From: Chlorobaculum limnaeum
Lineage (GTDB): Bacteria > Bacteroidota > Chlorobiia > Chlorobiales > Chlorobiaceae
Direction of reading: 5' to 3'
DNA: 64,000 bases
Assembly: GCF_001747405.1 (NCBI RefSeq)
Contig: NZ_CP017305.1
Span: 2,436,001 to 2,500,000 of the forward strand
This document shows positions 5,120 to 17,048 of this stretch, piece by piece (within the stretch, counting starts at the first letter, position 1; each line of letters begins with the position of its first letter). The notes beneath the pieces were generated by a model, which saw only the letters and a list, made by a program, of their open reading frames with translations, did no database searches and was not told where the DNA came from. The position numbers and the translations under genes are program-made.

Positions 5120-6328
5120 CTAACAGACGGGGTAGGCTTCGGGCAATTCGTAACCCTGCTCCTGAAGCTTGTAGGCCAGCATATCTCCGGCGAGAATAAT
5201 ATACTGGGAACGCCCCATTCTCGTGTAACCGGGACGATGATCCTTGGCAAGAGGCATGTCGAAACGATCCTGGTACTTGATATAGAGATCGGCAACCTTT
5301 TCGGAGGCCTCGACCAGCCAGTCGGCGTTCGGAGGAGGCATTCTGAACATATCGGCACCCGGTACCGGCTGATAGACAAGCATATTGGGATAGACTCCCT
5401 TCGACATTCGCTCCTCGACACCTTCGAGCATGATGTTCATCGGTTCGAGCCCCATCAGGATGAAGCTCGTCGTTCCCCTGCCTGGGCCGAAAATTTTGAC
5501 CGAGGCCTCCTGGGCTTCGAGCCAGTACTCAAGAGGATAGGTCGCGGATTTTCCAGGACAGATCGCCTTGAAGTAATCTGGATGTGTCACCTCGAGATCA
5601 AACTCGGTGGAGTTGAGGCCGGAAGCTTTCCACTTCTCCATTTCCTTGAAATCGTCCGGCGGGTAAAGGTTGGCTGTTATATGGAGTTCGTTCAGTACTT
5701 CAGGACTGACCTGCTCACGCAAAGGAGCCATAACCAGCTCCACCAGATCGGCAACCTGGGCTCGCCTCGAAGGATCGACAAGTCCACCGATAATGACAAG
5801 AGTACCTCTCCAACCCGCATCAGTGGCGATTTTAACAGCTTCAGCCTGCTCTTTAGCCAGTTCTTCGATCTTGGAAAACGGCATTTTTGCCAGTTCCTTG
5901 CCTACACCGATATGCTGATCTGCAAAGAAAAAGCAGAAGCGGCAGGAACGCCCGGTGTTGTTGTTGTCACAGCTGTAACTGTAATGGATATTGATGATAT
6001 CCTGATTCATGCCGATGACGGCTGCATCGACCGGGCGACCGTTACTGAGCTTGCCGCTACGCCAGGAAAAAGCCTCCTGCATCCGCCCGCTTGCCAGGTG
6101 CTGGCCGCAATCGTAAAACTCGACATCGTCGCCATTGACCTGGACCTCAAGACGGGTATAAGGCTCCTGCCTTACAAGCGTTGCAAGGTCACTGCCGTTA
6201 AGCACCATCGCCCTGAAGGGATTAAAGCCGGAGGCTGGTGGTTTGTTAACCGTCACCTTGGCGCCCTCGGAAAGCAGTCGCGCCTTTAAATGAATATCTT
6301 CTTTGGTAATAACCCTTTTTGTGCTCAT
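5120..6328 (-). CDS. bciD: radical SAM enzyme, probable BciD (bacteriochlorophyllide c C7 oxidase)
   Basis: A 402-residue radical-SAM protein. The iron-sulfur site is a Cys, eight residues, then CRFC, at about residues 119-131 (YSCDNNNTGRSCRFC). This spacing is longer than the classic CxxxCxxC. BciD of brown green sulfur bacteria converts the C7 methyl of bacteriochlorophyllide c into the formyl group of bacteriochlorophyll e. I assign it from length, radical-SAM class and company (CruB-type cyclase, NYC1-like SDR, BchF- and BchQ-type paralogues); I cannot confirm by alignment. It ends in its own terminator. No strong ribosome site is seen before the ATG. If wrong, it is another radical-SAM tetrapyrrole or lipid enzyme. 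Confidence 0.75.
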   Translation of the reverse strand: MSTKRVITKEDIHLKARLLSEGAKVTVNKPPASGFNPFRAMVLNGSDLATLVRQEPYTRLEVQVNGDDVEFYDCGQHLASGRMQEAFSWRSGKLSNGRPVDAAVIGMNQDIINIHYSYSCDNNNTGRSCRFCFFFADQHIGVGKELAKMPFSKIEELAKEQAEAVKIATDAGWRGTLVIIGGLVDPSRRAQVADLVELVMAPLREQVSPEVLNELHITANLYPPDDFKEMEKWKASGLNSTEFDLEVTHPDYFKAICPGKSATYPLEYWLEAQEASVKIFGPGRGTTSFILMGLEPMNIMLEGVEERMSKGVYPNMLVYQPVPGADMFRMPPPNADWLVEASEKVADLYIKYQDRFDMPLAKDHRPGYTRMGRSQYIILAGDMLAYKLQEQGYELPEAYPVC

Positions 6329-7441: not shown

Positions 7442-7585
7442 AGGGCATCTCTAAAAAGTGTCATGAGCGAGTCGAGTGCAAGGCGGACGGAGCGGAGAAA
7501 CCGGAGTGTACACGTAGTACATGAGGATTTCGAGCACCGCCCAACGCAGCAATCGGGTCGCGCAATAGGTTTTTAGAGGTGCCCT
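7442..7585. repeat. MITE-like palindromic element
   Basis: A 144-bp stretch bounded by near-perfect 16-bp inverted ends: AGGGCATCTCTAAAAA at 7442-7457 and the complement of AGGGCACCTCTAAAAA at 7570-7585 (one mismatch). The interior is itself loosely palindromic around GTGTACACGTAGTACAT. It codes for no protein. Its size and ends fit a miniature inverted-repeat transposable element, and it sits in the divergent promoter gap between two pigment genes. No convincing target duplication is visible. Confidence 0.65.
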
Positions 7586-7732
7586 CAATGCACAAGCAAG
7601 CGATACCCGCATGTTCGACCTGCGCGCAATCACGGCAAACCACAGTGCCGCAAACAAAAGTTGGGCCTGGGTGACCGGATTTTAACCATTCACGAGCCTT
7701 GTGAGTAAACAAGGCAACGACTGAGTTCTCTT
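7586..7732. other. non-coding remainder of the bchF-bchQ divergent gap
   Basis: Together with 7249-7441 this forms a gap of about 480 bases without a convincing gene. Open frames on the minus strand here run through the MITE-like element and show no family features. It must hold the promoters of both flanking genes, but I cannot place them. Confidence 0.4.
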
Positions 7733-9141
7733 ATGGATACCGTTACAGCAAAAAAAAACGATCGCTTGACATCCTCTTTGTCGCCCCACAAGGGAAAAAG
7801 GACTCGAAGACCAACCAGAAGCCGCTGTTCCATATGGCCATCGGCGTCCTTGTCAGCATAACACCGGAGCACCATAATATCGAAATAATTGATGAGCGTT
7901 TCGGCGACACCATCGATTATGACAAACAATATGACTTCGTCGGAATCACTTCGCGAACTATCGATGCCAAAAGAGCTTACGAAATCGCAGATGAATTCCG
8001 GAAAAGAGGAACAAAAGTCATCCTTGGAGGACTTCATGTCTCGTTCAACCCAGAAGAGGCCAGGGAACATGCGGACTGCATTGTCTGCGGAGAAGCAGAA
8101 AACCTCTGGGACACCATTCTTGAAGACGTTGCAGCAAAGCAGCTCAAGGCGCACTATGACGCAAAGGATTTTCCTCCTGTCACCACCATCGCACCCCTGA
8201 ACTACAAAAGAATCGCCAGGGCCTCGAAAAGAGAAAAGGTTGACAGCACGAAATCGATCCCCATCTACATCACCAGAGGGTGTCCTTACGAATGCTCGTT
8301 CTGCGTCACACCAAACTTTACCGGAAAACTGTACAGACGCCAGAATGATGAAGAGCTGAAAGCTCAGATAATGGCGGCAAAGGAGGTTTTTTTCAAAAAT
8401 AACGGGCGAAAAAACGCCAAACCCTGGTTCATGCTCTGTGATGAAAACCTGGGTATCAGTAAAGCGCGGCTCTGGAAAGCACTCGATCTGCTCAAGGAGT
8501 GCGATATCATGTTCAGCGTCTTTCTGAGCATGAACTTCCTCGAGGATGACGAAACCGTCAGGCGTTTGGTGGAGGCCGGTTGCAACATGGCGCTGGTTGG
8601 CTTCGAATCAATCAAGCAAAGTACGCTGGAAGCCTATAATAAAGGGCATGTCAACTCGGCAGATAAAATCGTCGAAGTAATCGAGCGCTGCAGAAAGGCA
8701 GGGCTTAATATTCAGGGAAACTTCCTGATCAATCCAGATCTCGACAGCTTCGAAGACATGGACGAACTGGTCAGGTTCATCGGACGCAACCACGTATTCA
8801 TGCCCATCATTCAGATCATTACGCCTTACCCTGGGACAAAAATGTATCACGAATACAAGCAAAAGAGCCTGATCGCCGATGAAGATTGGGACAAGTACAA
8901 CGCCCTCAACCTTGTGGTTAAATCGGTAAATTATGATCCGGTCTCATTCCAGCACAAGTTCATGCAAATTTACTACCAAAGTTACTCCTGGAAAAACATC
9001 ATCAACAGGGTACGCATGAACCCGTACCCGCTAATCAATCTGATTTCAAGCCTTGCCTTCAGGAAGCACCTCCGCGACCAGCTCGATTCGTTTGAAAAAA
9101 ACAATGCCCTGAAGCCCTCTGATAAAAAAAATATTTTCTGA
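7733..9141 (+). CDS. BchQ/BchR-family B12-binding radical SAM methyltransferase (frame break at A9 tract)
   Basis: From 7759 onward the frame encodes a complete B12-binding plus radical-SAM protein: a cobalamin-type Rossmann half ([13 protein letters not shown]..., later VILGGLH), then [11 protein letters not shown] for the iron-sulfur cluster. This matches BchQ/BchR, which methylate C8 or C12 side chains of chlorosome bacteriochlorophylls. No in-frame start exists before the first beta strand; the first in-frame ATG (7834) would delete it. An ATG at 7733 is out of frame by one base, and a tenth A in the A9 run (7750-7758) would join the two frames exactly. As written, 7733-7861 is a 42-codon ORF. 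Sequencing error, decay and slippage are all possible. Confidence 0.75.
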
Positions 9142-14914: not shown

Positions 14915-14988
14915 GCCGGATCGGCGCGTTTTGACAGGTCACATAACCGACCCGGCAGCGAACTGCATCAAGTCACAAACTTTCAGTA

Positions 14989-16140
14989 ATGGACCGTTAC
15001 ACACCGGATTCGTCGGCAGGCGCTGACAACGGGGTACCCGAGGTGCACATTGCGGCGCTTGAGAAAAAAATCGCTATGCTTGAAAGCAGGGCTTCGTTTG
15101 CCGAACAGCAATCGAAGGCGCTCGAGGTTGCCCTTGAATCAGCCCGTGCCGGTTGCTGGGAATGGGATAGGGATAGCGATACGATCCGTATCGACCGGCA
15201 ATGGGCCGTCATAAGCGGCATCGTTCCCGGAAGGTTCGATGCGCTGACGCTCGAAGAGTGGCGCGAACTCTGCCATCCGGACGATCTCGGTACAGTCGCG
15301 AAATCGATAGACGAGTATCTGAACGGCAACGGAGAGCTTCTGGAGTTTGAACTGCGGGTGCGACATGACGGTGACGGATGGATCCGGGTGCTCGACCGGG
15401 GCAAAATCACTCGCCGCGACCCGTACGGCAAGCCGTCGCTGCTTGCCGGATCACGGCAAATCATCACGGACAGGCTCGACGCGGGCGAATCGCGGGCGAA
15501 AAAAGCACAGGAAGAGCTGCAAGCACTGATCGACCATATTCCGGGCGCAGTGTACCATATTGACATGGCTGGGCAAACGACGATACGCTCCAGTCCACCC
15601 GAATTTCTGAAAGCGCTCGCTTCCGGGCATCAGGGAACGCCTCTGTTCAACACCCTTTCGATGATTCACCACGATGACCGGCACATGGTTGCCGGCGCGT
15701 ACAGCAAACTCAAGGAAGCTCCGCAATCCCGGACACTGGTGTACCGGATAGTCACCCCGGAGGGAGGAGTGCGCTGGATCGAAGACCACATGAAATCATC
15801 GTTCTCGGATGACGGGCTTTTTTCAGGAATCGACGGCCTCCTGTGCGAAATAACCGACCGCATCAACGGTCTTGAAGAGGCGCAACGGCTTGAATCGCAA
15901 TTGCGCAAATCACAAAGACTTGAAACCATCGGCACTCTTGCCGGCGGTATCGCTCACGATTTCAACAACATCCTCACTCCGATTCTCGGTTACGCTGAAA
16001 TGGGACTCTCCAGCACTGGCGAGGAGGATCCGATGCACGAGTACTTCGCCGAAATCACGCAGGCCGTCGAACGCGCTCAAAAGCTCGTTGGCCAGATTCT
16101 GACCTTAGCCGGGCAGAAGAGGGTAAGGCCATGCCTGTAA
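14989..16140 (+). CDS. PAS-domain histidine kinase, N-terminal part (frameshifted)
   Basis: 383 residues. After a short coiled coil (IAALEKKIAMLESRA) come two PAS regions (about 45-160 and 170-290) and a dimerisation/phosphoacceptor helix with AGGIAHDFNNILTPILGY (His about 322). The frame then ends in QKRVRPCL just as the ATPase domain should begin, and the ATPase half continues in another frame at 16131. Adding one C near 16104 would give ILTLSRAEEGKAMPV and fuse the halves into one hybrid kinase of about 686 residues. As written, this half can carry the phosphoryl group but has no kinase domain. Confidence 0.8.
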   Translation: MDRYTPDSSAGADNGVPEVHIAALEKKIAMLESRASFAEQQSKALEVALESARAGCWEWDRDSDTIRIDRQWAVISGIVPGRFDALTLEEWRELCHPDDLGTVAKSIDEYLNGNGELLEFELRVRHDGDGWIRVLDRGKITRRDPYGKPSLLAGSRQIITDRLDAGESRAKKAQEELQALIDHIPGAVYHIDMAGQTTIRSSPPEFLKALASGHQGTPLFNTLSMIHHDDRHMVAGAYSKLKEAPQSRTLVYRIVTPEGGVRWIEDHMKSSFSDDGLFSGIDGLLCEITDRINGLEEAQRLESQLRKSQRLETIGTLAGGIAHDFNNILTPILGYAEMGLSSTGEEDPMHEYFAEITQAVERAQKLVGQILTLAGQKRVRPCL

Positions 16141-17048
16141 GCATCCAGGAGATCATCGACGAAGCCATACAGCTCCTGCGCCCTTCGCTGCCTTCGTCCG
16201 TTATCATCGAAGAGCACATCGACCATTCGTGCCGCAACGTTCTTGCCGACCCGAACCAGATGCACCAGGTCGTCGTGAATCTCTGTACCAATGCCGTCCA
16301 TGCCATGGAGCAAACCGGAGGAGTGCTGAAGATCGGCCTCAGGGAAATCATCGCCGGAAACGGCATTCCCTCGGTCGTGCCGAAGCTGCCTGAAGGCAAC
16401 TATGTCGAACTGACCATTTCCGATACCGGAACCGGAATGGACGAACTGACCGCCGAACGCATTTTCGAACCATTCTTCACGACCAAATCGATCGATAAAG
16501 GCGTAGGACTTGGTCTGTCGGTCGTCCATGGCATCGTTATCGCTGCCAACGGACATCTCAACGTCGAAAGTGAAAAGGGAAAAGGATCGACATTTCATGT
16601 CTGGCTGCCTGCTAACGAAAATAAAGCCAGCGCCAAAGCTGAGGAAAAGCCCCAGCCAGCGAAATACGCGGCCAATATTCTCTTCATCGACGACGAGCCT
16701 GCCGCGGTTCAGATGGTGTCGATCATGATGACCAAACTCGGTTACAACATACGCGCCGAAAAATCTCCGGCTGAGGCGTTGAAAATCTTCCGGGAACAAG
16801 CGGATCAGTTCGACCTGGTCATCACCGATCTGACCATGCCCGAAATGACCGGCATCCAGTTGACCGGCGAGATCCATAAAATCTCGCCCTCGATCCCGGT
16901 CATTCTGATGACCGGATACGGTAAAATCATTGACCACGACACGCCGCTGAAACACTATGGAATAACCCGTCTGCTGAAAAAACCGGTCAAGCTCGCCCAG
17001 TTGGCCTCGGCGGTCAACGAAGTACTCTCATCAACAAAATCTTCTTAA
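16131..17048 (+). CDS. histidine kinase ATPase domain plus receiver, C-terminal part (frameshifted)
   Basis: 305 residues: an HATPase_c domain with the N box (QVVVNLCTNAVHAM, near residues 44-57), DTGTGMD and GLGLSVVHG glycine boxes, then a receiver domain from about residue 180 with LFIDDEP, TDLTMPEMTG and a late KKPV Lys. Its ATG overlaps the end of the upstream half by ten bases, so coupled translation of two separate proteins is conceivable. The simpler reading is one hybrid kinase broken by a one-base loss. Confidence 0.8.
   Translation: MPVSIQEIIDEAIQLLRPSLPSSVIIEEHIDHSCRNVLADPNQMHQVVVNLCTNAVHAMEQTGGVLKIGLREIIAGNGIPSVVPKLPEGNYVELTISDTGTGMDELTAERIFEPFFTTKSIDKGVGLGLSVVHGIVIAANGHLNVESEKGKGSTFHVWLPANENKASAKAEEKPQPAKYAANILFIDDEPAAVQMVSIMMTKLGYNIRAEKSPAEALKIFREQADQFDLVITDLTMPEMTGIQLTGEIHKISPSIPVILMTGYGKIIDHDTPLKHYGITRLLKKPVKLAQLASAVNEVLSSTKSS

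Follow-up and report, generated by a model that had tools for sequence, protein, structure and literature searches.

The window, a stretch of 64,000 nucleotides of the Chlorobaculum limnaeum genome (NZ_CP017305.1, positions 2,436,001 to 2,500,000), carries genes of a BChl e cluster, among them a gene for a B12-binding radical SAM methyltransferase, here named bchQ2, which as deposited has its conserved start separated from the rest of its reading frame by one base. The features concerned are the following, with positions counted within the window.

5120-6328, minus strand: bciD, for C7-methyl oxidation in BChl e synthesis, assigned from gene order and PMC3613366.
6775-7248, minus strand: bchF-like C3-vinyl hydratase gene of the BChl e cluster (bchF2 or bchF3 in the literature), the divergent neighbour of bchQ2, with a match to TIGR02020 BchF above the cut-off.
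7442-7585, no strand assigned: MITE-like element, bounded by 16-bp inverted termini, lying between genes upstream of bchQ2 and missing at the sister locus L040.
7733-7861, plus strand: short ATG-initiated frame of 42 codons that holds the conserved gene start and then runs out of frame; the ATGGATACCGTTACAGCA start recurs, in frame, in L040.
7750-7758, plus strand: A9 tract, at or beside which the frame changes; one of 36 places in the genome with nine or more A's.
7753-7759, plus strand: A_AAA_AAC heptamer, read from the sequence as phased with the ATG frame, on which a -1 slip would lead into the conserved frame (CGA TCG CTT).
7759-9141, plus strand: body of bchQ2, B12-binding radical SAM methyltransferase (PF02310 and PF04055), in the conserved frame with no further stops; 68% identical to the canonical copy and 95% to L040.
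7834-7836, plus strand: earliest ATG in phase with the conserved body; judged from the reading frame, residue conservation and a structure model, a start here would truncate the enzyme inside its first helix.

The profile matches to the B12-binding (PF02310) and radical SAM (PF04055) domains, together with 68% identity over 454 residues, that is, over its whole length, to the canonical and intact bchQ of the same genome (C1:465740-467098), agree with BchQ, the C8(2) bacteriochlorophyllide methyltransferase, and with the BchQ-like character attributed to the gene by an earlier note on this DNA. Nonetheless, bchQ2 differs from the canonical gene in belonging to a separate clade, in being linked to bciD and the bchF-like gene, and in having its start out of frame as deposited. 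A tree built from 41 homologues places the canonical copy with the bchQ of other Chlorobaculum (clade A) and the window copy in a mainly Chlorobium clade. The cluster known from brown green sulfur bacteria (bciD, bchF2/bchF3, cruB) is resembled in that bciD and the bchF-like gene adjoin bchQ2; the parts consulted of its published descriptions report bciD with bchF2/bchF3 (PMC3613366, PMC6639628) and, in contrast to the window, make no mention of a second bchQ. Upon comparison of the window genome with the Chlorobaculum parvum MAG that carries L040 (G002), BciD is 99.5% identical and BchQ2 95%, while the gene just beyond reaches 78% and other window DNA about 69-82%. Because the values for BciD and BchQ2 lie far above that of the flanking DNA, the BChl e cluster, bchQ2 included, looks transferred. 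Judged from sequence, the window gene is a second C8(2)-methyltransferase gene, part of a horizontally shared BChl e cluster. No further members were found among viral contigs. The sequence examined comprised regions around A-runs, the flanks of the window and homologous loci. The window genome contains more copies of the MITE-like element, six of them matching at 79-90% over nearly the full length.

Chlorosome absorbance is tuned through the C8 methylation that BchQ carries out, and whether one or two BchQ enzymes work in a cell affects how homologue patterns and mutants are to be read. Cba. limnaeum is a model for BChl e work, and the parts consulted of the 2013 bciD paper discuss a single BchQ.

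The frame opened by the ATG at 7733 stops at 7861, while the conserved frame, open between a TGA at 7702 and its own stop at 9141, contains no ATG, GTG or TTG before 7834. In the deposited sequence, the sole conserved start thus lies one base off, and bchQ2 lacks the intact frame with a usable start that characterizes the BchQ family. The earlier note had placed the 7733 start one base out of frame with the rest of the gene and had located the break at the nine A's of 7750-7758; both statements are borne out, the offset lying at or next to the tract. An alternative in-frame start was considered and rejected: none precedes 7834, and starting there would delete residues 1-26, including the near-invariant L7, P11, G13, Q21, P23, L24 and F25, and with them the predicted first beta strand (residues 5-10; the helix is predicted at 24-35). 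The structural prediction, made from four sequences, is of modest quality (mean pLDDT 60.7), and weight was given only to that first strand, where pLDDT reaches 85. Residues 4-26 are about as conserved as the rest of the protein: across 41 homologues, the most common residue has a mean frequency of 0.77 there and 0.78 elsewhere. The 461 codons of the body contain no second lesion. Since tracts of nine or more A's occur at only 36 places in 2.8 Mb, it is unlikely that the break meets so rare a tract by chance; tracts of this kind are favoured both by real slippage mutation and by 454 miscalling.

The sister locus L040, the closest homologue of bchQ2, matches the window exactly between the ATG and the tract and stays in frame beyond it. 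It reads A8CCAGATCG (GCA AAA AAA ACC AGA TCG) where the window has A9CGATCG, and other clade members show T-R or S-R codons at the same site (ACC CGA in L041, TCA AGA in L042). If the ancestral codons were ACC CGA, one C-to-A change and the loss of one C suffice to give the window sequence, and loss of an A would call for one more change. The missing base may have been lost as easily among the C's after the run as among the A's, and a tenth A may tentatively be regarded as one possible true state. The proposal that a tenth A restores the gene therefore stands in part: it does join MDTVTAKKK to the conserved frame, other single bases do so equally, and the sister sequence suggests that the lost base may lie 3' of the A-run.

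Substitution patterns indicate strong purifying selection on bchQ2. Between the window and L040, dS is 0.46 and dN 0.023, giving a ratio of 0.05, close to the 0.058 of the intact pair L041-L042, and, of the changes that could be assigned, the window branch received 24 synonymous and 9 nonsynonymous ones and the sister branch 27 and 8, respectively. As estimated from these counts, a fully unconstrained state would occupy at most about 3% of the window branch. An old pseudogene is rejected by the dN/dS of 0.05 and the absence of relaxation on the branch, and any true loss must therefore be very recent. The gene would accordingly still work in the cell, have been broken only very recently, or be expressed through some bypass.

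The second of these states corresponds to a genuine and very young null allele, in which a redundant bchQ2 would have lost one base beside the A-run while the native bchQ carries out the methylation; this has a reasonable though lesser claim and is held tentatively. The intact canonical bchQ of clade A in the window genome agrees with it, and the absence of relaxed selection requires the allele to be extremely recent. Its main support comes from other broken or lost copies. Frameshifts were found in three of the bchQ homologues examined (the window gene and those of G025 and G038), each at a position of its own, and the runs involved differ. G025, a brown genome of Chlorobium type, shares the gene order of the window and has an intact native bchQ, and its bciD-linked bchQ lacks one base in an A-run close upstream of TAA. 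Because this second genome with an intact bchQ is also frameshifted in its bciD-linked copy at an A-run, real young lesions probably occur. Two of the three dual-copy genomes (G025 and the window genome itself, which is G000) have a broken bchQ2 beside an intact native copy, against 1 of 42 genomes with only this kind of bchQ, that one being G038 (hypergeometric p about 0.009, a post hoc test); in the other 41 the sole, bchQ2-type copy is intact. On the contrary, both copies are intact in the third dual-copy genome, G018. A reciprocal case is offered by G002, whose bchQ2 is intact and which lacks the native bchQ at the corresponding locus (contig C50), although this genome is a draft MAG with 9% contamination. 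Thus, the pattern of broken and lost copies suits redundancy after cluster transfer, even though the case in the window itself depends on a 454-based assembly. Such damage to, or loss of, a spare bchQ, affecting either the native or the incoming copy once the brown cluster had been acquired, would make a small case of redundancy following horizontal transfer.

Some details of these loci are recorded here. The G025 break (L087:6400-6420) reads GGA AAA AAG TAA, an A_AAA_AAG with the stop directly behind it, where a -1 slip restores the conserved frame. In G038, the break consists of a surplus base in a C8 run (L043:6105-6112), in the sole bchQ copy found in that genome, and the neighbouring genes compared are largely intact. 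In G002 (HyVt-633 MAG; L135, G002:C50:8000-11737), a contiguous stretch at the canonical bchQ locus has 269 bp where about 1.65 kb would be expected, only bchQ2 being kept, and the gene beside this gap is IS200-like by our own reading.

The distribution of the A-tract bears on the suggestion of the earlier note that a phase-variable or slippage-controlled switch operates here. As a contingency switch, the tract would vary in length within the population, turning BchQ2 on and off and tuning antenna absorbance. Lengths of A9 in the window and A8 in the sister, and the C8 run that breaks the sole bchQ of G038, could be read in that sense. However, among the homologues compared, the tract appears only in the window and its sister, in frame as A8 in the latter and missing at this site in L041, L042, L043 and L087; the change between window and sister is coupled to a substitution rather than being a pure change of tract; the three breaks fall at three positions in different runs; and an intact native bchQ would mask the off state. 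A phase-variable switch is thus considered highly improbable.

A leaky enzyme is a further possibility, if the lesion is real and either RNA polymerase adds an A within A9 or the ribosome slips by -1 on A_AAA_AAC, yielding MDTVTAKK(K/N)RSLDIL and a low dose of BchQ2, with no programmed signal. The A9 run, the heptamer correctly phased at 7753-7759 and purifying selection across the whole body are compatible with such a rescue, as is the A_AAA_AAG of G025, described as much more shift-prone in E. coli (PMC5009743), on which a -1 slip restores the frame of that gene; moreover, a laboratory system has yielded functional protein despite frameshifts in an A8 run (PMC3812077). Nonetheless, the -1 phasing is no independent evidence, any deletion in an A-run leaving such a site automatically; E. 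coli RNA polymerase inserts at A7 at only 0.39% (PMC6260861); and A_AAA_AAC shifts only weakly in E. coli, far less readily than A_AAA_AAG (PMC5009743). No stimulatory structure was found downstream of 7753-7759 (z = +1.43, with 190 of 200 shuffles folding at least as well), and conservation of the heptamer was not found in the relatives, the sister being in frame and the others having no such site there. The stem behind the G025 site (z = -2.84) lies within the range of intact homologues, 2 of 30 of which fold at least as well there, and structure-stimulated frameshifting was rejected. Leaky rescue is therefore possible, and on balance unlikely. Weaker still is a general version for dual-bchQ brown green sulfur bacteria, by which the BChl e-linked copy would be selected and expressed only through A-run slippage (A_AAA_AAC in limnaeum, A_AAA_AAG in G025), producing a low, noise-driven extra C8 methylation; it appears quite doubtful. 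The proposed switch, in either of its forms, thus finds no support, considering that (i) the tract is not conserved, (ii) no structure follows it, (iii) the canonical bchQ is intact, and (iv) A_AAA_AAC is weak in E. coli (PMC5009743).

Known cases of slippage offer partial parallels. Poly(A) frameshifts rescued by transcriptional slippage (Blochmannia, Citrobacter tssM) share with bchQ2, as far as the parts consulted of those reports go, an A-run in an otherwise open and constrained gene, whereas rescue is reported there and bchQ2 has an intact homologue in the same genome. With dnaX-type programmed -1 frameshifting at A_AAA_AAG, the likeness lies in a heptamer phased for -1, the bchQ2 site differing in being A_AAA_AAC, in having no stimulatory stem and in not being conserved.

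Long homopolymers are a common source of length errors in 454 consensus sequences. The Cba. limnaeum DSM 1677T genome (CP017305, 2,797,276 bp) was obtained by 454 GS FLX+ sequencing and Newbler assembly, with Sanger reads for gap closure only (PMC5473272), so that the A9 tract stands in a 454-only consensus. The plain alternative named in the earlier note, a base missed in assembly, gains strength from this. Mainly because of the 454-only assembly and the homopolymer length errors of 454, a miscall is the best reading of the displaced bchQ2 start, closely ahead of a young genuine null allele, with a probability that we put a little under even. It would imply that one base of the A9-C run was dropped from the consensus, in sequencing and not in the cell, that the true bchQ2 starts at the ATG of 7733 and reads through in frame, and that the displaced start is most likely absent from the living cell. 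The position of the break at one of the longest A-runs of the genome, the intact start of the sister, a body free of any other lesion and purifying selection as strong as in an intact pair all agree with a miscall.

Other observations weigh on the opposite side. Other A9-A10 tracts, where checked in genes of assigned identity, leave the frame intact, examples being DnaX (A10), RsmA (A10), RlmN, a glycosyltransferase and an exosortase; miscalls at A-runs are therefore not common in this assembly, which somewhat lowers the case for an artefact. Furthermore, the lost base may as easily have been among the C's, where a 454 error would be less expected; another frameshift in the window, in a histidine kinase gene and outside any homopolymer, indicates that real lesions or other errors exist; and the bciD-linked bchQ of G025 is likewise frameshifted as assembled. 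A general excess of frame breaks in the assembly was rejected, 4-5 of 62 genes being split relative to two relatives over 184 kb around the window, against 8-9 of about 110 when the relatives are compared with each other; most of the split genes lie near gene ends or antisense.

The kinase gene (14947-17036, plus strand) encodes a hybrid PAS/HisKA/HATPase/receiver protein and is split by a one-base deletion near 16107, with ACCTTAGCC in place of the TTCAGC of relatives; intact orthologues of 709 residues are found in G015 and G019. Slippage in dnaX giving a short gamma subunit is known from Thermus. The in-frame A10 tract of dnaX in the window genome (L058:2001-2010, G000:C1:940202-940211) is a candidate slippage site for making such a subunit, and the A10 of rsmA/ksgA, also in frame, lies near the gene start (L068:2001-2010).
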